Origin: Campylobacterales bacterium
GTDB taxonomy: Bacteria; Campylobacterota; Campylobacteria; Campylobacterales; Sulfurimonadaceae
Direction of reading: 5' to 3'
Assembly: GCA_026390115.1 (NCBI GenBank)
Contig: JAPLGO010000003.1
Location: 62,001 to 126,000, forward strand
Length of the DNA stretch: 64,000 bases
Notes under the pieces: generated by a model
The model's database searches: none
Seen by the model: the letters and a program-made list of their open reading frames with translations, nothing else
Told to the model about the DNA's origin: nothing
Shown: positions 7,443 to 24,366 of the stretch, piece by piece
How positions within the stretch are numbered: the first letter of the stretch is position 1
Layout of the letters: every line of letters starts with the position of its first letter
Translations under genes and position numbers: made by a program

Positions 7443-9059
7443 TTAATCTCTGTGTCTAAGTGTACTGCTTCTTGGAGTACTGCTTCTGCTTCCGCCAGCT
7501 GCATTTCCTCCACGGTATCCGCCACCGCTTCCACCTTCACGACTACGAGTTGCTCCGCCGGCTGAAGAGCCACCACCATCGCGACTGCGGCTTGCCCCGC
7601 CACCAGAACGGTTTCCGCCGCTTGAAGAACGATTTTTGCCTTTGTATCCGCCACCTGAACCTCTTGTATCTCTTCTTCTTCCGGCTCTCTCTAAAATTTC
7701 TTCAATTCTATCAGCTGGGATACCGATGTTGTTCGGTCCCTTTATCTCTTGATTATCTAAAAGCATAGAGATAAGTTTATAAGCCATTTTCTCTTCATCA
7801 ATATCTAAACGAAGAAGGTCTAAAACTTTATGAGCTTCATCATAGATATGCTGGTCTTCAATCTTCTTAACTAAAGCAGTGAGTGTTGTTTTTCTTAACT
7901 CATTTTTACTTGGAACAAAAGCATGTGCCATTGAAGTCCCGACTTTTTGTTTGATTCTTTGAAGTTCTTTAAACTCTAGCGGAGTTAAAAGTGTAATCGC
8001 CTTACCTTTAGTTCCGGCACGACCTGTTCTTCCGATGCGGTGAACATAGCTCTCTGGGTCAAATGGGATATGGTAGTTGAATACATGCGAGATATTGTCA
8101 ACATGTATGCCGCGCGCAGCAACATCTGTTGCAACAAGAACTTTTACGCCATTATTTTTGAAACCTTTAATAACTGTTTCTCTCTGGCGTTGCTCCATAT
8201 CCCCATGCAGACCATTTGCCAAATAACCCGCACTTGAGAGTACATTTGAGAGTCTATCTACTTCACTTTTTGTTCTACAAAAAACGATTGACTTGTCCGT
8301 ATCTTCTGAGTCCATAAGACGAATAATTGCATCATCTCTCTCGCTCTCTTCAATCACATAGTAGAGCTGTTCAATATCTGTATTCGTCGTTTCGCCCTTA
8401 GTAATCGAGATAAATTCAGGATTGTCAAGAATTCTGCTCGCCAAAGTTTTGATTGGCTGAGGCATAGTAGCCGAGAATAGAAGTGTTTGACGAGAAGTTG
8501 GAAGGTAAGAAAATATTTCATTAATATCATCTAAAAATCCCATGTCAAGCATTTCATCTGCTTCATCAAGTACAACCAAAGTAGGAGCGAAATTTTTTAC
8601 TAAATTCTTTTTAAGAATGTCTAAAAGACGACCCGGAGTTGCAACAACGATATTTCCGCCTCTCTCAATTAGGTCGATTTGTCTATTGTATGAACTACCT
8701 CCGTAAACTGTTACAGTTTTAACACCTAAATTTCTGCCGTACTTGAAAAGCTCATCAGAAACCTGCGTAGCAAGTTCACGCGTTGGAGTAATAACTAAAA
8801 CTTCAACACCACCTTTTAAGTGCATGTTTGAAATGGCTGGAAGACCAAAAGCTGCAGTTTTACCTGTCCCTGTGTGTGCTTGCCCGACTATATCGCGACC
8901 CGCTAAAACAAAAGGAATAGCTTGTGCTTGAATAGGACTTGGAATTGTAAAACCTGCATATTTAACTGCTTGTAATACTTCTTTTTTTAAGTTTAAATCA
9001 TCAAATGTGATTAACGCTTCTTCTTTTGGAGTGTTTGTTTGTGCATTTTCTTGCATCAT
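7443..9059 (-). CDS. DEAD-box ATP-dependent RNA helicase
   Basis: A 538-residue RNA helicase, likely acting in ribosome assembly or mRNA turnover. Motifs run in order: Q motif (GFTIPSPIQAQAIP), AHTGTGKT, PTRELA, TPGR, DEAD, SAT, ARGIHVDNISHVFNYHIP and HRIGRTGRAG. After a family-typical helical extension, the last 80 or so residues are a low-complexity tail of Gly, Ser and Arg (repeated RSRDGGGS, GGGYRGGN). Such tails bind RNA without sequence choice. The leader can fold into a nested hairpin. It is DeaD/CshA-like, but the exact orthologue is not certain. Confidence 0.93.
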   Translation of the reverse strand: MMQENAQTNTPKEEALITFDDLNLKKEVLQAVKYAGFTIPSPIQAQAIPFVLAGRDIVGQAHTGTGKTAAFGLPAISNMHLKGGVEVLVITPTRELATQVSDELFKYGRNLGVKTVTVYGGSSYNRQIDLIERGGNIVVATPGRLLDILKKNLVKNFAPTLVVLDEADEMLDMGFLDDINEIFSYLPTSRQTLLFSATMPQPIKTLASRILDNPEFISITKGETTNTDIEQLYYVIEESERDDAIIRLMDSEDTDKSIVFCRTKSEVDRLSNVLSSAGYLANGLHGDMEQRQRETVIKGFKNNGVKVLVATDVAARGIHVDNISHVFNYHIPFDPESYVHRIGRTGRAGTKGKAITLLTPLEFKELQRIKQKVGTSMAHAFVPSKNELRKTTLTALVKKIEDQHIYDEAHKVLDLLRLDIDEEKMAYKLISMLLDNQEIKGPNNIGIPADRIEEILERAGRRRDTRGSGGGYKGKNRSSSGGNRSGGGASRSRDGGGSSAGGATRSREGGSGGGYRGGNAAGGSRSSTPRSSTLRHRD

Positions 9060-9072
9060 ATACCTTTAATTA

Positions 9073-9116
9073 AGGAGATGATACAAGCATACTTTTGCAG
9101 TATGGCACCTTCTCCT
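9073..9116 (-). promoter_or_regulatory. structured 5' leader of the helicase gene
   Basis: Read on the minus strand, AGGAGA (9111-9116) can pair with TCTCCT (9073-9078). Nested inside is CATACT-loop-AGTATG (9088-9104). The structure ends a few bases before the AAAGGTAT ribosome site. A foldable leader on a DEAD-box helicase gene suggests temperature or autogenous control; this is inference. Confidence 0.4.
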
Positions 9117-9202
9117 AGAAAATTTTGCGAATTGTATCTAAAAATTCATAAAGAATAATTAAAGTTAAATATATTTAAAATAATTTAAGTTAATGATGTT
9201 CT

Positions 9203-11368
9203 TTATTTATACACTACAGTAGTGTTTCTTCCACTTTTTTTAGCTTCATATAAAGCTTCATCAGCTCTTTGCAAAATTGTTTTTACATTTTTGTCCTCTT
9301 TTAAATCTGCAATTCCAATGCTTACACTATATTTAATAGTTTGAGATTCTATTGTTAGACTTGAGTTAAAAACTTCTTTACGCAATCTTTCCGAGAAATT
9401 ATATGCACCATCTATATTTGTTTCCGGAAGAATGATTACAAATTCTTCTCCGCCGATTCGAGCTACTATATCTGCTTCTCTTGCTATATTTTTACAAATA
9501 TTTGCAAAATGCTTTAAAACTTCATCCCCAATTGCATGTCCATAAGTGTCATTGATTTTTTTAAAATAATCTATGTCCAACATTAGCAGAGTTAAATTGC
9601 GGTTGTAACGCTTTGATTGTTTTATTTCAAGTGCAGACAATTCTTCAAATTTACGACGATTTAACATTCCCGTTAATATGTCATGAAATGCCATTTCTTC
9701 AAGTTTAATATTTTCTCTTTGTTTGCTTTTCAGTTCTATATCTTTTTGATTTTTATATAACTGTGTAAATATGTCTCCTTTTAAAAGTTTTAGTCTGGTT
9801 GTTTCATAAGAGTCATACATACATGCTATTTCGTCTCTGTTAATCATAATTGGAGAGAGTCGAAAACTTCTTCCACCACTTGCCAAATCTTTCATAGCAT
9901 CTGTAAGTTGGGAAATTTGCTTTGTTGAGCTTTTCTTTAGTGTGTAGAGTATAAAAAAAGTAGTAGCCAATATGATTGTATTGAAAAGAATCCATAAAAA
10001 AAGATTTTGAATCGTACCGCTTATGCGGTTGTCAATTAAACCATTAATTTCAATCAAAAGCTGATCTTCAAAATTTTTTACACTATCTATTAGTTCTGTG
10101 AGTGAATTGAACCAAGTTTCAGAATCTAAGTTTTCAAAATCTCTGTTTTTTAGTTTTTCCTCAGATTCGGATATTTTTTTTGCAATGACAGAGTTAAAAA
10201 TAGTCTCCTTTGTGCTCTTTTGATTTTGTGATGCTGTTTGCTCAAACATAAGTAAAAAAGATTTTTGAGCACCAAGAAGTTGCATAAATGAAATATTTTC
10301 ATCTCTGGTTGTGCTTTTTTTCTCTATAAGCATTGTTCCATAGGCTCTCTCTTGCCCTAGAGCCTCTTTTAGATGTAAAATAGACGATAAAGTTGATATG
10401 GAGGAGGAGATTTCTCCGTCAATATTGAGAAAGGCTATTCTTGGGGTGATGGAGAGTATATTTCTTAATATCTTAGAATAAGTGTTTATTGCATCAATTT
10501 GAGAGATTTTTTTATCGTTTATCTGCTTACGAAGATTATTTAATGTGAGAATATCTTCCTCAAATATATTTATAAACGGCTGTATTGCAATTAGCTTCTC
10601 CTTGTGAACAGTTTTGAGTTTATTTACGAATGAGACTACATCATTGTTCACAATTTCTTTTTGTTTTTGCAGTCTATCATCAAACTTATTTTCTATTGAT
10701 GTTAGATACCCGCTGCTTAACCCTCTTTCAATTTGGATATTGTGAGCAAGTGTATTAATATTTCCGATAGTGTATGTTATACTGGATGTACTTTTCATCT
10801 CTTCATATTTTTGATAATTATTCCAAAGAATTATAGAGCCAAAAAAAAACATTCCGATAAGAGGAATAAGAACAGAGAGCAATATTCTCTTGGTAAAACT
10901 AAATGTATCGGTTGTTTTTTTTATTAATCGTTGAAATAAAGATTCTTTTTTGCTGTTTTTATTTTTAGCAAGTTCACAGTTCTCAAAGAAATTTATTAAT
11001 GGTATATCCTCTGTAATAATATGGTTGAGTAACCAATCAATTAAATAGATAGTTGCGTCTTGGGCTGCAACATAATCACTTGTACTTAAAAATTTAGCTT
11101 TGAGTTGCGGTATTTTAGAAATAAAATCATCGTGCTGCTTTTTATGCTCGGCAAGAGCATTTTGATTGCACTGCTTTATATAAGACTCTTCTTGATTGAA
11201 ATGTATTAGAGAATACTCTTCTAAATCTTTAAAAATATTGTTTAGCGTACTCTCTGACGCATTTGTATCTATCGCTTCAGAGAGTTGATTAATAATGTCC
11301 AAAAGTTTTTTATGATTATTGTCCAGCACTTCAACACCAACACTTAATCCGTCATTCCACTCTATCAT
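9203..11368 (-). CDS. hemerythrin-NIT-GGDEF diguanylate cyclase
   Basis: A 721-residue membrane sensor that likely makes cyclic di-GMP. Residues 1-130 are a bacteriohemerythrin with all seven iron ligands visible (His19, His56, Glu60, His75, His79, His116, Asp121), so it should bind a di-iron centre and oxygen. A membrane segment near 155-180 leads to a periplasmic helical region resembling NIT nitrate/nitrite sensors (ERGLSSGYL, later GQERAYGTM). A second membrane segment lies near 455-478. Then come a HAMP-like linker and a GGDEF domain with intact GGEEF at 639-643. Two inputs, cytoplasmic oxygen and a periplasmic anion, would meet at one output. Confidence 0.85.
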   Translation of the reverse strand: MIEWNDGLSVGVEVLDNNHKKLLDIINQLSEAIDTNASESTLNNIFKDLEEYSLIHFNQEESYIKQCNQNALAEHKKQHDDFISKIPQLKAKFLSTSDYVAAQDATIYLIDWLLNHIITEDIPLINFFENCELAKNKNSKKESLFQRLIKKTTDTFSFTKRILLSVLIPLIGMFFFGSIILWNNYQKYEEMKSTSSITYTIGNINTLAHNIQIERGLSSGYLTSIENKFDDRLQKQKEIVNNDVVSFVNKLKTVHKEKLIAIQPFINIFEEDILTLNNLRKQINDKKISQIDAINTYSKILRNILSITPRIAFLNIDGEISSSISTLSSILHLKEALGQERAYGTMLIEKKSTTRDENISFMQLLGAQKSFLLMFEQTASQNQKSTKETIFNSVIAKKISESEEKLKNRDFENLDSETWFNSLTELIDSVKNFEDQLLIEINGLIDNRISGTIQNLFLWILFNTIILATTFFILYTLKKSSTKQISQLTDAMKDLASGGRSFRLSPIMINRDEIACMYDSYETTRLKLLKGDIFTQLYKNQKDIELKSKQRENIKLEEMAFHDILTGMLNRRKFEELSALEIKQSKRYNRNLTLLMLDIDYFKKINDTYGHAIGDEVLKHFANICKNIAREADIVARIGGEEFVIILPETNIDGAYNFSERLRKEVFNSSLTIESQTIKYSVSIGIADLKEDKNVKTILQRADEALYEAKKSGRNTTVVYK

Positions 11369-11499
11369 TTACCGTAACCACCTTTCTTTATTGTAAATAT
11401 TATATAGTTAATTTTATATCAATGAGATTAAAATCGACACTTATGGATTAAGCAATAGTAATATTGTATAATTTTTATATTTTATTTCAGGGTTGGCAT

Positions 11500-12750
11500 G
11501 TGGATTTATATTTGATACTTTGTGTAGTTGCTCTTGTTGTGATTTTGTTTTTACTCTATCTATTGTTGAACAAAAAAGAGGCTTTTTTAAAAATTGTTTA
11601 TGAAAATGAGGAGCTGAAGGCTCGGCATGCAGAGCTTCAAAACTCTAAGAGCGAGTTGGAGATAAGACATGCTGTTTTAAATACCCGCTATGAAAGTGAG
11701 ATACAATCTTCTCACGAAAAATTATCAATACTTCAAAATGCCAAAGATGAGTTAAGTAACGAATTTAAAGTATTGGCGAATCAGATATTTGAAGATAAAT
11801 CAAAACAGTTTAATCATACGCACAAAGAGCAGTTTGAGATACTTCTAAAACCTTTTCGTGAGCAGATAAGCAACTTCTCCATGCAGTCAAAAGAACAGTT
11901 TAATACAGAATCCAAAGACAGACATCTTCTCAAAGATGAACTTATTAGGCTTAAGGAAATGAATGCCAGACTTTCAGAGGATGCGCTCAATCTTACAAAT
12001 GCACTCAAAGGTGAGAACAAAACGCAAGGAAATTGGGGCGAAATAGTTTTGGAGAAAATTTTGGAGGAATCAGGTTTGCGAGAGGGAATGGAGTATGAAA
12101 CTCAGGCTACTCTAAAATCGGCTGATGGCAAAATATATCGTCCTGATGTAATCATTCACATGCCACAAAACAGAGATATTATCATTGATGCAAAAGTCTC
12201 CCTTGTAGCCTATGAGAGATTTATGAGCGGAGATAATCCGCAAGCCAAATCTCTGGCACTCAAAGAGCACCTTCAAAGTATTTCGGCTCATGTAAAAGGT
12301 CTTAAAGAGAAGCAGTATGAAAAATTAGAGGGCGTAAATACACTCGATTACGTGCTGCTTTTTATGCCTATAGAGGGTGCATTTTTACTCGCTCTTGCAG
12401 AGGATGGTGAATTTTTTAAACGGGCGTACGAAAATAATATTTTGATTGTTTCTCCCTCTACTCTGCTAGTGACTCTCAAAACCATAGAACACATCTGGAG
12501 AACTCAAAGACAGCAAGACCATACAAAAAAAATAGTGGATGAAGCAGAGGCCATGTATGACAAGCTAGTTCTGTTTGTAGAGGAGATGCAAAGTATCGGT
12601 ACCTATCTGCAAAAGAGTCAAAATTCCTATGATAGCGCTATGAAAAGGTTGAGCAGCGGAAAAGGAAATATAATAAAAAGAGCTGAAAATATGAGAGAGT
12701 TGGGTTTGAAACCTAAAAAACTTTTAGAAATCAGCAGCTTTGAAGAGTAA
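11500..12750 (+). CDS. rmuC: DNA recombination protein RmuC
   Basis: Membrane-anchored RmuC-family protein, thought to limit DNA inversions through a nuclease-like domain. The N-terminus is one membrane helix (LYLILCVVALVVILFLLYLLL), followed by a long coiled coil to about residue 165. The conserved RmuC core then includes KTQGNWGEIVLEKILEESGL, YRPDVIIHMP and IIIDAKVSLVAYERF. The frame is open from a TTG at 11464, but GTG at 11500 is preferred because CAGGG precedes it at a workable distance and the protein then begins at the membrane helix, giving 416 residues. Confidence 0.9.
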   Translation: MDLYLILCVVALVVILFLLYLLLNKKEAFLKIVYENEELKARHAELQNSKSELEIRHAVLNTRYESEIQSSHEKLSILQNAKDELSNEFKVLANQIFEDKSKQFNHTHKEQFEILLKPFREQISNFSMQSKEQFNTESKDRHLLKDELIRLKEMNARLSEDALNLTNALKGENKTQGNWGEIVLEKILEESGLREGMEYETQATLKSADGKIYRPDVIIHMPQNRDIIIDAKVSLVAYERFMSGDNPQAKSLALKEHLQSISAHVKGLKEKQYEKLEGVNTLDYVLLFMPIEGAFLLALAEDGEFFKRAYENNILIVSPSTLLVTLKTIEHIWRTQRQQDHTKKIVDEAEAMYDKLVLFVEEMQSIGTYLQKSQNSYDSAMKRLSSGKGNIIKRAENMRELGLKPKKLLEISSFEE

Positions 12751-15250: not shown

Positions 15251-16331
15251 AATAACTGCTCTAGGGCTAAAAATAGTCATCACAACACATCTGCTTGGAT
15301 TTGCTCTTTTTGGTGCGCAAACTATAGAGATTTCGCAAAAACAACAGAAAGATTTAGGTGTGAAGTGCCAAGCGGTAACAAAAGTAGAAACCATCTCTTT
15401 TGGTCCATACAATGGGGTTGTAATTCTTGATAAAAATGATATTTATTCTATTAGTTCAAATGTTGAGTCAATAGTAAAAGAGATACATGTTAGAAAATTA
15501 GAATATGTAAAAAAGGGACAAAAACTTTTAACACTTAAAAGCAATGAACTTTTAACTCTTCAGCAAGAGTATATTCAAGCACTTTTAGAGAGTGACAATA
15601 TAAACCAGAATCATGAAAGAAATATTAAGCTTTATGCAGAAGGCATTATTTCAAATAAAAAGCTTTTAGAATCAGAAAAATTAAAACGAAGCAGCGATTT
15701 AGATGTTCGATTAACGGCGAATCAACTCTTAACAAATGGTTTCAACGAAGCAATGCTAAAAACTCTTCAAGCAACAAGCCGCCCGATTGTTGAAAAAACT
15801 ATTTATGCCTCACAAGATGGTACTGTTTATGAAGTAAATGTAAATATTGGCGAGTATGTTCAAGCGGATTACAAGATGATTCAGATTTATGCCGATGGCA
15901 CAAGATTTATTCAACTGACACTTCCTGTAAAAATTGTAAAGAATGTATCGATTGGCGACATATGTACATTTGATTCATATCGTGCAAAAGTGAGCGCCAT
16001 CGGAAATGTAGTAAATAGTGCTTCCCAGTCGGTTGAGGTGAGGGCTACGATAGAGAATGCAAAAGATATTATGATAAACAGAGTTTATGAAGTGACCCTG
16101 ACTGATGCTATCAGTGATGCATTTAAAGTTACAAAAAATGCTTTAGTTTTTGACGAAAATAGATCCTACCTCTTCAAAAAAGTTCCACTAGGTTTTGAAA
16201 TGATAGAGGTGAAAATAATAAGCGAGGGAGTTAACTGTTATGTTGTAACAGGCGATTTGAGTGTGGGTGATGAAGTGGCTGCTAGTTCAACCTCTGCACT
16301 GTTAAGTGCAAGGGAGAGTAAAAGTGAGTGA
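15240..16331 (+). CDS. periplasmic adaptor (membrane fusion protein) of RND system 1
   Basis: Bridges the inner membrane pump and the outer membrane channel. A signal sequence (LGLKIVITTHLLGFALFGAQ) leads to a split lipoyl/barrel-sandwich domain (VESIVKEIHVRKLEYVKKGQKLLTL and later YASQDGTVYEVNVNIGEYVQA), with a short alpha-hairpin between and beta-barrel domains after. ATG at 15240 is preferred to an upstream TTG because GGAG lies 7 bases before it, giving 363 residues. It overlaps both neighbours (11 and 8 bases), so the three products are made together. CusB-like by partner; no methionine-rich metal site stands out. Confidence 0.86.
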   Translation: MHSKITALGLKIVITTHLLGFALFGAQTIEISQKQQKDLGVKCQAVTKVETISFGPYNGVVILDKNDIYSISSNVESIVKEIHVRKLEYVKKGQKLLTLKSNELLTLQQEYIQALLESDNINQNHERNIKLYAEGIISNKKLLESEKLKRSSDLDVRLTANQLLTNGFNEAMLKTLQATSRPIVEKTIYASQDGTVYEVNVNIGEYVQADYKMIQIYADGTRFIQLTLPVKIVKNVSIGDICTFDSYRAKVSAIGNVVNSASQSVEVRATIENAKDIMINRVYEVTLTDAISDAFKVTKNALVFDENRSYLFKKVPLGFEMIEVKIISEGVNCYVVTGDLSVGDEVAASSTSALLSARESKSE

Positions 16332-19300
16332 GCACTTAGTTAACTTTGCCCTTAAGCAGAGGGTTTTAATACTTTTCCTTGCTGTCGGCGTACTTTTTTT
16401 TGGTGCATGGTCTATGTGGAAACTTCCGGTAGATGCGTATCCGGATGTAGCACCTACGCAAGTGAAGTTGATTTTGAAAGCTTCCGGAATGACACCGGCA
16501 GAGATGGAAACAAGAGTTACCATTCCTGTTGAGCAGAACATGCAGAGCCTTCCAAATAAAAAAATTGTTCGCTCTTTGTCAAAATATGGAATATGCGATA
16601 TAACGATTGATTTTGAAGATGGAGTTGATATCTATTGGGCAAGACAGCAAGTGGCTCAAAGACTCTCGGAAGTTACGGGCGAACTTCCTTCTAGCGTTAA
16701 TGGAGGATTGGCACCTATTACAACTCCCCTTGGCGAAGTTTTGATGTTTACAATAGAATCAGACACTCTGAATTTAATGGAAAAAAGAACTCTGCTTGAT
16801 TGGATTATAAATAAACGCCTTCGCAGCATTGATGGGGTCGCTGAAACAAATGCGCTTGGCGGATATGTAAAAACATATGAGATTATTCCCGATTTTGCAA
16901 AGATGAAACAGTACCAAATCACTATGGAGATGTTAAAAAATACCCTTTCTCAGAATAATAAAAATGATGGTATCGGAAGACTTTCATTGGGTGAACAGAG
17001 TCTCTATATTCGCTCAGAGGGAAGACTTAAAAATATAGAGGATATCTCAAAACTTATAATAAAGCATGAACAAGGTAATAATATAAGAGTCTCTGACATA
17101 AGCAGTGTGCAAATAGGTTCATTAACAAGGGCAGGTTTTGTAACTAAAGATGGCGAGGATGAAGCAGTTGAAGGTCTTGTACTCTCAAGAAAAGGTGTCG
17201 ATACCTCAGGCCTTTTAACAAGAGTAAAGGCTGAAATACAAAGAATAGAAAAAGATTTGCCAAAAGGAACTAGCATAAATATTTTTTATGACCGCTCAAA
17301 TTTAGTTTCAAAAGCTATAAAAACAGTCTCGTCAGCTCTATTAGAGGCTCTAGTGTTGATTGTTCTAGTTCTTTTTATATTTTTAGGCAATTTTGCATCT
17401 GCATTCAGTGTTTCGATTATCTTGCCTTTTGCCGCTATGATGACTTTTATAGCAATGGGTTATTTTGGAATAAGTGCAAATCTGATGAGCCTCGGAGGGT
17501 TGGCAATCGCTATTGGGATGTTGGTAGATGCCGGTGTTGTGATGGTTGAAAATATAAGCGAGCATCTGCAAGATGAAAAATATAGGAATGAACCGAAGCT
17601 TGACTTGGTTTTAAAATCGGCAAAAGAGGTTGCAAGTCCTGTTTTTACAGGTATTTTGATTATTATCATATTCTTTTTGCCGCTATTAACACTCGAAGGG
17701 TTGGAGGGAAAACTCTTTGTTCCCGTTGCCCTGAGTATAGTTTTCGCACTTAGCTCATCACTTCTATTGGCTCTTACCTTTATCCCGATAGTAAGTTTTT
17801 ATGTTTTAAAGCAAGTCCCACATGCCAAAGTTTCTCTGATGGTTTTTTTAGAGCATTGGTACGAGAAGATTTTAAGATACTCACTATCGAATCAAAAAAT
17901 TGTTTTTTTCACTGCAGGAATTTTATGGATACTTGCCCTTGGCGCTTTCACACAGGTTGGAAAAACTTTTATGCCAACACTGATGGAAGGAAATATAATC
18001 ATCGGCATAGAAAAAAATCCCTCAATCTCTCTTGAGTCAAGCCGTGATATTGATATTAAAATTCAGCAGGCACTTATGCGTGATGTTCCAGAGATTTTAT
18101 CTATTATTGCTCGCGGCGGCAGCGATGAGATAGGTCTTGATCCGATGGGGTTAAATGACACAGATACATTTTTAGTGCTTAAGCCTAAAGATGAGTGGAG
18201 AGTTCCATCAACTGAGTGGCTCCATGATGAATTTAGAAAGGTATTGGATCAATTTGTAGGAATTAAGTATGGATTTACGCAGCCAATCGCCATGAGAATA
18301 TCAGAAATGCTTAGTGGCTCGCGGGGCGATATCGTTGTCAACATATATGGAGAAGATTCTGCAAAATTAGAAGAGATTGCAAAAAAGGTTTTTATTATAG
18401 CAGAAGCTACAAAAGGCAGCAGTGATGTTTATAAAAAAGCAAATGAGGGTGTTGCATACTGGGAGATAGAGTTTAAAAATGAAGCAATGGCTCGTTATGG
18501 CGTGAGCAGAGATGAACTTTCACTCTATCTCCAGAGTTCAATTAATGGAGTTCAAGAGGGAATAATCCAAGAGGACTTAAGAAGAATACCGCTGATGATT
18601 AAAGGCTCTAAAGACATGCAGACAAGCATGATAAAGAGTATTAATTTACAATATGTTTTGGAGGACGGAAACAGCATTGAGTTGAATGAGCTGGTATCGT
18701 TTAAAATGACGCAGGGACCTGTTCAAATAAATCATGAAAACGGACTCAGAAAAACTTTGGTGCAGACAAATGTCGTAGGTCGTGATTTAGTTAGCTTTGT
18801 TGATGAACTTAGCACAAAGATAAGCAGTAGCATAAAGTTACCGCAAGGTTATTTTATCGAGTTCGCAGGAGAGTACAAAAATCAGCAGAGAGCATCTAAA
18901 AAACTCTCTTACATTATTCCTCTTAGTATAGGACTTGTTTTTATACTTTTATTGTTAACATTTAAATCATCTTTACAAGCATTTCTCGTTCTGCTTAATA
19001 TTCCATTCGCACTCATTGGCGGAGTCTTTGGACTTTACTTCACAGGTGAATACATGAGTGTTCCGGCTACTGTCGGGTTTATTGCTTTAATGGGGATAGC
19101 TGTACTCAACGGTGTTGTAATGCTTAACTATTTTAACTCTTTAAAGCATAGCGTAAATAACTCTTTAGAACTTGTTACTATAGGTTCAATAAGAAGGCTT
19201 CGACCGGTTCTTATGACTGCTTTTATAGCAGCACTTGGACTTATTCCTATGCTTTTTGCAACAGGGCCAGGTTCTGAGATACAGAAGCCACTGGCAATTG

Positions 19301-19386
19301 TTATTATCAATGGGCTTGTTTCATCTACTTTTTTAACATTAGTTTTATTGCCAATTTTATATCAAAGATTTGTGGCTAAAAAGTAA
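16324..19386 (+). CDS. RND heavy-metal efflux pump, CusA-like
   Basis: Inner membrane proton-driven pump of about 1020 residues with the RND plan of twelve helices and two large periplasmic loops. The fourth helix reads AIAIGMLVDAGVVMVENI, with Asp402 and Glu409. This fits the Cu(I)/Ag(I) group (AIGxxxDA...EN, as in CusA) better than the divalent group (DFGxxxDGA). GTG 16324 is chosen over GTG 16306 because GGGAGAG lies five bases upstream. Copper or silver export is inference from the helix-4 signature and operon type. Confidence 0.85.
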   Translation: MSEHLVNFALKQRVLILFLAVGVLFFGAWSMWKLPVDAYPDVAPTQVKLILKASGMTPAEMETRVTIPVEQNMQSLPNKKIVRSLSKYGICDITIDFEDGVDIYWARQQVAQRLSEVTGELPSSVNGGLAPITTPLGEVLMFTIESDTLNLMEKRTLLDWIINKRLRSIDGVAETNALGGYVKTYEIIPDFAKMKQYQITMEMLKNTLSQNNKNDGIGRLSLGEQSLYIRSEGRLKNIEDISKLIIKHEQGNNIRVSDISSVQIGSLTRAGFVTKDGEDEAVEGLVLSRKGVDTSGLLTRVKAEIQRIEKDLPKGTSINIFYDRSNLVSKAIKTVSSALLEALVLIVLVLFIFLGNFASAFSVSIILPFAAMMTFIAMGYFGISANLMSLGGLAIAIGMLVDAGVVMVENISEHLQDEKYRNEPKLDLVLKSAKEVASPVFTGILIIIIFFLPLLTLEGLEGKLFVPVALSIVFALSSSLLLALTFIPIVSFYVLKQVPHAKVSLMVFLEHWYEKILRYSLSNQKIVFFTAGILWILALGAFTQVGKTFMPTLMEGNIIIGIEKNPSISLESSRDIDIKIQQALMRDVPEILSIIARGGSDEIGLDPMGLNDTDTFLVLKPKDEWRVPSTEWLHDEFRKVLDQFVGIKYGFTQPIAMRISEMLSGSRGDIVVNIYGEDSAKLEEIAKKVFIIAEATKGSSDVYKKANEGVAYWEIEFKNEAMARYGVSRDELSLYLQSSINGVQEGIIQEDLRRIPLMIKGSKDMQTSMIKSINLQYVLEDGNSIELNELVSFKMTQGPVQINHENGLRKTLVQTNVVGRDLVSFVDELSTKISSSIKLPQGYFIEFAGEYKNQQRASKKLSYIIPLSIGLVFILLLLTFKSSLQAFLVLLNIPFALIGGVFGLYFTGEYMSVPATVGFIALMGIAVLNGVVMLNYFNSLKHSVNNSLELVTIGSIRRLRPVLMTAFIAALGLIPMLFATGPGSEIQKPLAIVIINGLVSSTFLTLVLLPILYQRFVAKK

Positions 19387-21300: not shown

Positions 21301-24300
21301 TTAATTTTTTATTTCATTGTTTTCAAGCAATGTAGTTTCAAAAAAATATTGTTTACATTTTACAAAACGTAATAATGCTGGCAATAATATCAGTAGAATT
21401 AATGTTCCAATGAACATCCCTCCAACGACAACAATGGCAAGAGGTTTTTGTATTTGACTTCCTACCCCAGTGGAGAGCATTGCTGGCAATAATCCAATGG
21501 ATGCGGTTAATCCTGTCATTATAATGGCTCTAAATTTATCCGATGCAGTTTGAATAATTGCTTCTTCAAGATCAATATCTTTGCGTAGTTGCAAAAAGTG
21601 AATAACAAAGATGGACGCATTTAAAATACTTACTCCTAGAATAGAAATAAATCCTACTGATGCAGAAACACTCATAGGTTGCCCCAATAAAAGCAAAAAT
21701 GCCAATCCTCCAAAGACAGAAAAAAGCGCAGCTGTAAAAATTATAATTGTATTTCTAATGGATCCAAAATAGATAAACAATACTAAAGTAATTAAGAGAA
21801 GCGACGCAGGTGTCATGATTGCCAATCGGCCAAAAGCATTTTTCATCTGTTCAAATCGTCCTGATAAATTGGTTCTATACCCTTCTGGCATGGTAATAGT
21901 ATCAATAGCCTCTTTAACTTTTGCTACAGTTCCTGCTAAATCACTTGAAGTAACGGAAAACTTAATGGGGATAAATCGCTTAAAATTTTCACGATAGATA
22001 AACGAGGCTCCCGTATCATAATAAATTTTTGTAACTTTGGAAAGCGGGATGGTTCCTCCATTTGCCAGCACAACTGGAATTTCCTTGATATTTTCAATAC
22101 TTTTTCTGTACTCATCAGGAAATTTAACAAGTAAATTAAAATGCATATCTTGTTCAATAATTTGAGTGATAGCATTTCCATTTAAAGAGGAAGCGACGAT
22201 ATTTAACAGATCTGCAACATTCATTCCATATAATGCAGCTTGTTTACGATCGATTTCTATGATTAGATTCGGTTGTCCAGTCTCTTTAAAAATTCCAACA
22301 TCAGCAACACCCTCAATATTCTTGATTTTACTTTCGACTTCTGTGGCCAATCGGTCCAATACATCAAGATCATCTCCAGAAATTTTAACGGAGTTTTCCC
22401 CTTTAACACCAGACATTGCTTCCGCCAGGTTATCTTCAATGTATTGAGATACAGTGATATCAACATTAGGAAATTCATTTTTAAGTTCTGTTCGAACTCT
22501 ACTTTCTAAATCTTCTTTGCTAAAACCTTGAGGTAACTCTTTATAATCTTTCAGTTGTACAGAATATTCAGTATTGAATGCTCCTGAGGGATCAGTCCCA
22601 TCCTCTGGGCGACCAGCTTTAAATTGAACGGTTTTTAGTTCCGGAAATTTGATTAATATATCTCGTATTTTTTTAGAATTTTCATAACTTTTACTGAGAC
22701 TGATAGAATAAGGAAAAATAGCACGAATATAGAGATTTCCCTCATCCATTTTTGGTAAAAATTCAGCACCGAGACTCCCTGCGATAAAAAAAGTTAAAAC
22801 AAAAATTACCCCAGTAGTCACGACTGCTACTTTGCCCGTGATGCGAGTAATCAATTTCATATATTTGGTTTTTATCCACTCTAATAATGGCAACACTTTT
22901 TCATTAGAATTTCGTAGGAAACTGTATTTACTGGCAAATAGAAAACTGAATGTGAGGATAAATGCGAAACTAATTGCATAGACATAGGTTTTTGCCATCG
23001 GAAGAAAAATCTGAGATTCAGCCCCATTCATCGCAAAAAGAGGAATAAATGCCAAAAATATTATAAGAATTGCAAACATAATCGGCTTGCCAACTTCACT
23101 TGCTGTTTGAAGAATTGCGGGAACATGCTGACGCCCCTGATGCTTAAGCCTAAAATAATTCTCGATCACGATTAATGGAATATCAACAATAATACCAAAG
23201 TCAATCGCTCCTAAAGAGAGTAAGTTAGCCGATTCATGTTTCCCGGCCATAAGAGCAAGGGTGTAGAGGAGTGATATCGGGATAATGGAAGATACAATGA
23301 CTGCCGCACGCAAATCGCCTAAAAATAGAAGTATAATAACAAATACCAAAATCATTCCGACGGATGCTGTCTCTTTTAGTTTATCCACAACGGTATGAAG
23401 TAAATCCTGACGATCATAAAAAGGGACGACTTTGATATCTTTGGGAAGAATACCGTTATTAAGTTCATCAATTTTTTTATGAAGTTCGCTCATCGCCACG
23501 ATGCTCGGTGCATTTTTAGCTAAAACAACAACACCTGTAACAATCTCATCGGTTTGATTAATCCCTGTTATTCCAGTTTTTGGCGCAGAGGAAATCGAAA
23601 CTTCAGCAATATTTTTTATGTAAATAGGACGATTATTAATCGTTGTAACGATAGTATTTTCGATATCGTCTGTAGTTTTAATCAACCCGACCCCACGAAT
23701 AGTATAATATTGATCTCCGAATTCCAATACACGACCGCCGACATTTACATTACTGTTTGAGAGAGCTTGTATAACAGTGCTAAAAGGAATCTTGTATTTG
23801 ATAAGATCATCTGGATGCACTACTACGGCATATTCTTTGATTGCACCGCCAAAGCTTGGAATATCAGCAATGTTTTGTACTGTTTTCAGATAACGCGCTA
23901 TTACCCAATCCTGATAAGTACGCAACTCAACCAAACTTCGATTTCCAACAACACGGTAACGCATGATTTCACCAATCGCACTAGGAACAATATTTGGGGT
24001 TACACTGGCTGGAAGAGTAGCTTGCGTTAAGCGATTTAAAACTTCTTGTTTAGCCTCTTTGTAAGAAACATCATAGGTGAATTTACATTTGATATCAGAT
24101 AATCCATATAAAGAGATACTGTTGATATTCTGAAGTCCTGGCATTCCTGCGAGAGCAATTTCTAGTGGGGTTGTAATTTGTTTCTCCATATCTTCAGCAG
24201 AGTGACCTTCATTAACAGTTACTATTTCAAGAATTGGAGGTGCTGGATCAGGGAATGCTTCGATATTAAGATCCCGCACTACAACGATACTTACAGCAAC

Positions 24301-24366
24301 AGTGATGGCTGTAAAAAGTAAAACGGCAAGAAAATTATCAATAAAAAAGTTGGCGAGTCTACCCAT
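21301..24366 (-). CDS. RND heavy-metal efflux pump, CzcA-like (divalent type)
   Basis: 1021-residue proton-driven inner membrane pump. The fourth helix reads LGAIDFGIIVDIPLIVIEN, with Asp389, Asp395 and Glu402. This DFGxxxD...EN signature belongs to pumps for divalent ions such as zinc, cobalt, cadmium or nickel, unlike the CusA-type pump 5 kb away. The GA after the second Asp is replaced by Ile-Pro, so the subgroup is unclear. The N-terminus (MGRLANFFIDNFLAVLLF) and the duplicated helix blocks are typical. One base separates it from the adaptor gene. Confidence 0.86.
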   Translation of the reverse strand: MGRLANFFIDNFLAVLLFTAITVAVSIVVVRDLNIEAFPDPAPPILEIVTVNEGHSAEDMEKQITTPLEIALAGMPGLQNINSISLYGLSDIKCKFTYDVSYKEAKQEVLNRLTQATLPASVTPNIVPSAIGEIMRYRVVGNRSLVELRTYQDWVIARYLKTVQNIADIPSFGGAIKEYAVVVHPDDLIKYKIPFSTVIQALSNSNVNVGGRVLEFGDQYYTIRGVGLIKTTDDIENTIVTTINNRPIYIKNIAEVSISSAPKTGITGINQTDEIVTGVVVLAKNAPSIVAMSELHKKIDELNNGILPKDIKVVPFYDRQDLLHTVVDKLKETASVGMILVFVIILLFLGDLRAAVIVSSIIPISLLYTLALMAGKHESANLLSLGAIDFGIIVDIPLIVIENYFRLKHQGRQHVPAILQTASEVGKPIMFAILIIFLAFIPLFAMNGAESQIFLPMAKTYVYAISFAFILTFSFLFASKYSFLRNSNEKVLPLLEWIKTKYMKLITRITGKVAVVTTGVIFVLTFFIAGSLGAEFLPKMDEGNLYIRAIFPYSISLSKSYENSKKIRDILIKFPELKTVQFKAGRPEDGTDPSGAFNTEYSVQLKDYKELPQGFSKEDLESRVRTELKNEFPNVDITVSQYIEDNLAEAMSGVKGENSVKISGDDLDVLDRLATEVESKIKNIEGVADVGIFKETGQPNLIIEIDRKQAALYGMNVADLLNIVASSLNGNAITQIIEQDMHFNLLVKFPDEYRKSIENIKEIPVVLANGGTIPLSKVTKIYYDTGASFIYRENFKRFIPIKFSVTSSDLAGTVAKVKEAIDTITMPEGYRTNLSGRFEQMKNAFGRLAIMTPASLLLITLVLFIYFGSIRNTIIIFTAALFSVFGGLAFLLLLGQPMSVSASVGFISILGVSILNASIFVIHFLQLRKDIDLEEAIIQTASDKFRAIIMTGLTASIGLLPAMLSTGVGSQIQKPLAIVVVGGMFIGTLILLILLPALLRFVKCKQYFFETTLLENNEIKN

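Follow-up and report, generated by a model that had tools for sequence, protein, structure and literature searches.

How do Campylobacterota weigh oxygen against nitrate? The question arises because ArcA, FNR and NarPL, which Proteobacteria use to adapt to different electron acceptors, are reported to be lacking in this phylum (a passage of a 2019 review, PMC6682613). It is raised here by a gene in a 64,000-nucleotide stretch of a Campylobacterales genome of the Sulfurimonadaceae (GenBank contig JAPLGO010000003.1, positions 62,001 to 126,000; hereafter the window). The gene is a single open reading frame on the minus strand, with an ATG start and without internal stop, encoding 721 residues in which a bacteriohemerythrin domain (Hr) is followed by a membrane-spanning NIT domain and a GGDEF domain (Table 1). 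We propose that its product is probably a two-input, membrane-bound diguanylate cyclase, in which Hr would read oxygen or redox state inside the cell, NIT would read nitrate or nitrite outside, and cyclic di-GMP would be the output.

The domain layout is clear. Pfam matches to Hemerythrin (residues 11-121, E 1.7e-13), NIT (207-440, E 4.7e-36) and GGDEF (560-715, E 5.1e-47) each exceed the curated cut-offs, and two hydrophobic stretches (about residues 156-184 and 455-478), identified by hydropathy only, lie on either side of NIT. Lysines and arginines number 7 in residues 140-165, before the first transmembrane stretch (TM1), and 4 in residues 476-495, after the second (TM2); on the NIT side the counts are 2 (183-200) and 1 (440-456). 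Because of this charge balance, the predicted topology that fits is one with Hr and GGDEF inside the cell and NIT outside. A first-pass annotation, made by a model from the letters alone, had described an intact bacteriohemerythrin with seven ligands, placed in the cytoplasm before the first membrane helix, then a membrane NIT-like sensor and GGEEF, with one output serving two sensors. The Pfam and NCBIfam matches, the ligands, the hydropathy, the charge balance, the GGEEF motif and the single GGDEF domain after Hr and NIT bear this out. A chance match or an assembly artefact is ruled out, as the whole architecture recurs in many genomes: the two-sensor architecture is real.

The search for the same domain order in other genomes that the first-pass annotation had suggested was run at several scales. 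Among 200 genomes of the family searched with the window protein, 21 full-length relatives were found in 19 genomes, the window genome included; the other matches listed start after residue 380, i.e. in the GGDEF part. At the level of the genus, 19 of 135 genomes carry the gene, and in a phylum sample of 397 genomes matches spanning Hr and NIT occur in at least 7 genomes among the matches listed. A scan of named genome contigs with two Hr-derived patterns, covering the best 80 of 344 relatives and thus giving a lower bound, returned at least 27 loci with a match spanning both domains. The carriers were Sulfurimonas, other Campylobacterota, nine Gammaproteobacteria (two Neptuniibacter, Pontibacterium, Marinobacterium, Motiliproteus, two Colwellia, Litorilituus and a Methylococcales bin) and the alphaproteobacterium Telmatospirillum. 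Carriage on plasmids was rejected, the plasmid collection holding no match at E 1e-60. After removal of duplicates and two contig-end fragments, 35 distinct Hr-NIT proteins remained (25 from Campylobacterota, 9 gammaproteobacterial and 1 alphaproteobacterial; hereafter the members). The output is GGDEF in 34 of them, and all 26 members scanned, from one alignment, have Pfam matches to Hemerythrin, NIT and GGDEF. The remaining member, from Telmatospirillum siberiense (L073, 6001-8508), resembles the window protein in having Hr ahead of TM-NIT-TM and differs in that both sensors sit on a chemoreceptor (MCP), not a cyclase; its HAMP match is under the Pfam cut-off. In a quick tree of Hr plus NIT, Campylobacterota are separate from the gammaproteobacterial members. 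In the GGDEF tree, Motiliproteus, on a long branch, groups with four Campylobacterota, and an output domain may therefore have been swapped. Near the Marinobacterium gene, the opposite strand encodes a 373-residue protein with a start that looks hemerythrin-like by eye (L065, 9558-10679).

The Hr domain scores 103.8 bits against the NCBIfam bacteriohemerythrin model NF033749 (cut-off 84) and contains every residue of H-HxxxE-HxxxH-HxxxxD, which a passage of PMC9388753 gives as the seven-ligand motif of bacteriohemerythrins. The seven diiron ligands are complete in 31 of the 35 members, the window protein included. Hr is a putative two-iron, O2-reactive domain. According to passages of PMC9388753, the characterised Hr cyclase and Hr phosphodiesterase track the redox state of the iron and not ligand binding; in Bhr-DGC, the cyclase of Vibrio cholerae, the diferrous form is ten times as active as the diferric form and ligand binding is without regulatory effect. 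By analogy, O2 binding itself as the signal is not supported by the Hr cyclase precedent.

The NIT domain (PF08376) scores 125.8 bits against a cut-off of 24.9. It was modelled alone because a fold search with the full-length protein returned GGDEF-containing entries among the matches listed. The resulting model (mean per-residue confidence, pLDDT, 91.7; predicted TM-score, pTM, 0.87) matched both NasR chains in Foldseek (4akk, E 5e-9 and 1.4e-8, query TM-score 0.78), and nothing besides these two chains in the PDB library fell below E 0.001. The predicted fold is thus the NasR-like helical fold, and the periplasmic part, which the first-pass annotation had called NIT, is NIT by sequence and predicted fold alike; a domain that is NIT-like but not NIT is ruled out by the Pfam E-value together with the NasR match. 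In the phmmer alignment, R215 and R341 each fall opposite an arginine of the NasR pocket, and we infer that R341 is R176 of the NasR paper (PMC7496416, in part), through a numbering offset of 27 taken from the alignment. A passage of PMC8199190 describes G-x-x-R as the nitrate motif, with glutamine replacing one glycine in NasR; the window protein shows this NasR pattern, Q in the first motif and G in the second. All 35 members have Q212, R215 and R341, and 34 have G338; in one Sulfurovaceae member (L068, 4333-6456) alanine replaces this otherwise constant glycine.

As for the output, none of the 34 members that have GGDEF departs from GGEEF or RxxD, and the core columns D600, N606, D607 and D615, along with GGEEF, do not vary among the 26 aligned members. 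From its spacing, we take RxxD to be the inhibitory site (I-site). Diguanylate cyclase activity is predicted from GGEEF and the invariant core. A GGDEF domain that is enzymatically poor and serves as a receptor for cyclic di-GMP or GTP is conceivable in principle, and we found nothing in favour of it; given the invariance of these residues and the best PDB match, which is to GGDEF from a diguanylate cyclase of Marinobacter, it is very improbable. The linker between TM2 and GGDEF is called HAMP-like: the window protein has no match to HAMP (PF00672); 10 of 26 members have one, at E 0.001 or lower. In an AlphaFold2 model of the full single chain (26 aligned sequences, mean pLDDT 87.6), Hr is helical, the linker at residues 137-140 is poorly defined, the GGDEF part mixes helix and strand, and helices run at 158-223 (TM1 into NIT), 416-496 (NIT through TM2) and 513-561.

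How might the two inputs reach one output? From the observed parts, their order, their conservation and the NasR-type predicted fold, we infer the ligands, the signs of the responses, the dimer and the coupling as follows. The diiron Hr at the N-terminus would report O2 or redox state inside the cell, its reduced, low-O2 form favouring activity by analogy with Bhr-DGC. NIT, outside, would bind a small oxyanion, nitrate or nitrite being the likeliest, and binding would shift the two helices that run unbroken in the model from NIT through the membrane. Through the HAMP-like linker, this shift would set the pairing of two GGDEF domains. Hr, which hangs on TM1, might bias the same helix bundle or contact the HAMP-like and GGDEF part, since both are on the same side of the membrane. 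The cyclic di-GMP produced would be held down by the I-site.

Several observations weigh against this proposal. The four pocket residues are also found in every one of 26 other NIT domains from Campylobacterota (3 from the window genome and the 23 best-scoring from other Campylobacterota). Among the gamma- and alphaproteobacterial carriers, 12 of the 13 NIT domains that belong to no member have the pocket motif whole (23 rows, 10 sorted here as members and 13 as non-members). NIT of Pseudomonas aeruginosa PA4520 bound neither nitrate nor nitrite according to part of PMC6381276. One carrier genome (G050) is without a napA match, and no nitrate reductase- or oxidase-like gene was seen by eye among the listed open reading frames of window positions 1-30000. 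The whole-chain pTM of the model is just 0.50, making its domain packing unreliable. Finally, 4 of 35 members lack an intact diiron site, and all four keep their NIT and GGDEF sites.

Being near-universal among NIT domains, the pocket motif is a mark of the NIT family, not of a ligand. It was dropped as proof that nitrate is sensed, and nitrate as the ligand is a best guess and no more. NIT could instead sense another anion or a protein partner, the protein then being a cyclase for oxygen or redox and a second, unnamed ligand. This is possible if somewhat unlikely: the non-diagnostic arginines and the napA-less carrier speak for it, and the presence of both NasR-type arginine motifs and the distribution of napA speak against it. 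The window genome has a napA match over the cut-off, and in the 200-genome family sample napA occurs in 18 of 19 carriers versus 125 of 181 non-carriers (Fisher p 0.016) when a match has to be stronger than E 1e-100, a threshold chosen after the table was seen. With ten weaker matches included (about E 1e-52 to 1e-76), non-carriers rise to 135 of 181 and p to 0.050; both tests are uncorrected, ignoring kinship and genome completeness. As for the first-pass interpretation as a whole, its domains, ligands, layout and single output stand; the nitrate motif proved not to be diagnostic, and O2 binding as the signal found no support.

The four broken diiron sites imply that Hr sensing is dispensable for some members. 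They differ from one another: in L016, positions 75, 79 and 121 are occupied by Y, Q and N; in G099, position 75 of one copy is R; L019 combines N at 116 with the absence of one residue; and a copy in Sulfurimonas OB8 (same contig as G139) has lost one residue between H116 and D121, a shortened loop that may still bind iron. Such losses, with NIT and GGDEF whole, would also be expected if Hr were no signal input and merely held or scavenged O2 or iron at the membrane while the cyclase was set by NIT alone; hemerythrins of Campylobacter jejuni protect iron-sulphur enzymes, as part of PMC4257069 reports. We consider this quite unlikely in view of the retention of seven ligands in 31 of 35 members across Campylobacterota and Proteobacteria, and of the redox-regulatory role of fused Hr in Bhr-DGC and Bhr-HD-GYP (passages of PMC9388753). 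A two-input cyclase remains our preferred reading. The Hr:NIT identity ratio of the four (1.01-1.12) is inside the span of intact members (0.96-1.35). General decay of the Hr domain is nonetheless possible in L019 and L016, because they have the lowest Hr identities of 19 rows (38.6% and 43.4%; others 45.0-56.0%) and because Pfam Hemerythrin scores are lower in the three broken members scanned (31.1-46.8 bits) than in the window protein (51.6 bits).

Two of the broken copies belong to tandem pairs, found in two genomes (L035, 7254-11637; L054, 6001-10373), each pair comprising one intact and one broken diiron copy. Across the two genomes, NIT identity is 72% and 66% between orthologous copies and 44-47% between paralogues. 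In G099 it is the second gene that is broken, in OB8 the first, i.e. different paralogues. On these alignments, the duplicates look to have lost the diiron site reciprocally, in two cases only. Diiron loss with the NIT site kept, and intact/broken tandem pairs that differ in the paralogue affected, are new here, and naturally occurring members with NIT whole but the diiron site broken are ready-made controls.

Among related systems, the source study of Bhr-DGC from Vibrio cholerae is said to be that of Schaller et al. 2012. This cyclase shares the N-terminal bacteriohemerythrin and C-terminal GGDEF of the window protein, and no NIT is described between them in the relevant passages of PMC9388753 and PMC8846402, whereas the window protein has TM1-NIT-TM2 and the HAMP-like linker there. 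NasR of Klebsiella oxytoca (4akk) shares the NIT fold, both arginine motifs and Q for G in the first; its output, unlike the window protein's transmembrane flanks and GGDEF, is an ANTAR RNA-binding domain (PMC7496416, in part). The window genome encodes three further NIT proteins (L001, L002, L003) that share the NIT domain and pocket motif; they have no hemerythrin match, and their outputs look by eye MCP-like (L001, L002) and histidine kinase-like (L003). DcrH of Desulfovibrio vulgaris also combines Hr and a membrane sensor in one chain, but its Hr is C-terminal, after the MCP domain, and the passages of PMC9388753 concerned do not describe its periplasmic part as NIT.

The first-pass annotation had called the order uncommon, which held only in part. 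N-terminal Hr with C-terminal GGDEF was the second most frequent architecture, with 22 proteins, in a 2016 survey (PMC4919030, in part), and it is the membrane-spanning NIT between the two that is unusual. The Hr-GGDEF order is thus known and common; what is new is the joining of both sensors in one cyclase. No description of an Hr-NIT cyclase was found in titles, abstracts and passages of a literature with few subscription journals, and the 56 Hr architectures of PMC4919030 may include one. PMC1592074, the only paper met that contains both "hemerythrin" and "NIT domain", has them in separate passages, and the whole words "NIT" and "nitrate" were not found in the main text of the census of cyclic di-GMP sensors PMC8846402.

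In the window (7443-12750), the cyclase gene is flanked by genes that we take, from the look of their sequences, to be of rmuC type and deaD type. A survey of position (31 loci, 21 carrier genomes, window excluded) placed the gene between these two neighbours in 13 of 21 carriers, as in the window; of the remaining eight, in one the contig ends beyond rmuC, and in another (L016, G053) the flanks covered 1.5 kb only. Among 10 non-carriers, 6 have rmuC and deaD matches separated by 319-572 bases, which is too little to hold the cyclase gene; the four others have a distant rmuC match (about 41%). Because rmuC and deaD flank the gene in most carriers and adjoin in these six non-carriers, the gene is, judging from its flanks, gained or lost at one site. 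Further along, at 16306-19386 and 21301-24366, two RND-type efflux pump-like genes (1026 and 1021 residues) were noted by eye, near each other on opposite strands and each adjoining smaller genes that resemble pump partners.

Table 1 Features of the cyclase gene, in window positions.
Feature	Position	Strand	Basis
Whole gene, Hr-TM-NIT-TM-HAMP-like-GGDEF protein, 721 residues	9203..11368	-	Open reading frame, Pfam
Bacteriohemerythrin domain, residues 1-130	10979..11368	-	Pfam, NCBIfam; ligands H19, H56, E60, H75, H79, H116, D121
TM1, about residues 158-182	10823..10897	-	Hydropathy; helix 158-223 of AlphaFold2 model
NIT domain, Pfam range 207-440, predicted periplasmic	10049..10750	-	Pfam; NasR match by phmmer and Foldseek
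NIT motif Q-x-x-R, Q212 to R215	10724..10735	-	Alignment; motif in a passage of PMC8199190
NIT motif G-x-x-R, G338 to R341	10346..10357	-	Aligned to G-Q-E-R of NasR
TM2, about residues 455-478	9935..10006	-	Hydropathy; helix 416-496 of AlphaFold2 model
HAMP-like linker, about residues 479-535	9764..9934	-	Pfam HAMP in 10 of 26 members, window protein not among them
GGDEF diguanylate cyclase domain, residues 556-719	9212..9703	-	TIGR00254 (E 1.5e-54); Pfam
RxxD, presumed I-site, residues 630-633	9470..9481	-	Alignment
GGEEF active-site motif, residues 639-643	9440..9454	-	Alignment

What might such a family do for its carriers? Tentatively, and as a rather doubtful extension of the proposal above, its members may join oxygen or redox sensing inside the cell with nitrate sensing outside, partly replacing the missing Arc, FNR and Nar systems in Campylobacterota, and tandem duplicates may split the task, one copy keeping two inputs and the other, a different paralogue in each genome, becoming nitrate-only through loss of the diiron site. 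If this is true, a single enzyme with Hr and NIT would be a direct means of weighing oxygen against nitrate, and swimming against settling. A family that includes natural copies with broken diiron sites makes this one answer to the oxygen-versus-nitrate question in Campylobacterota testable.
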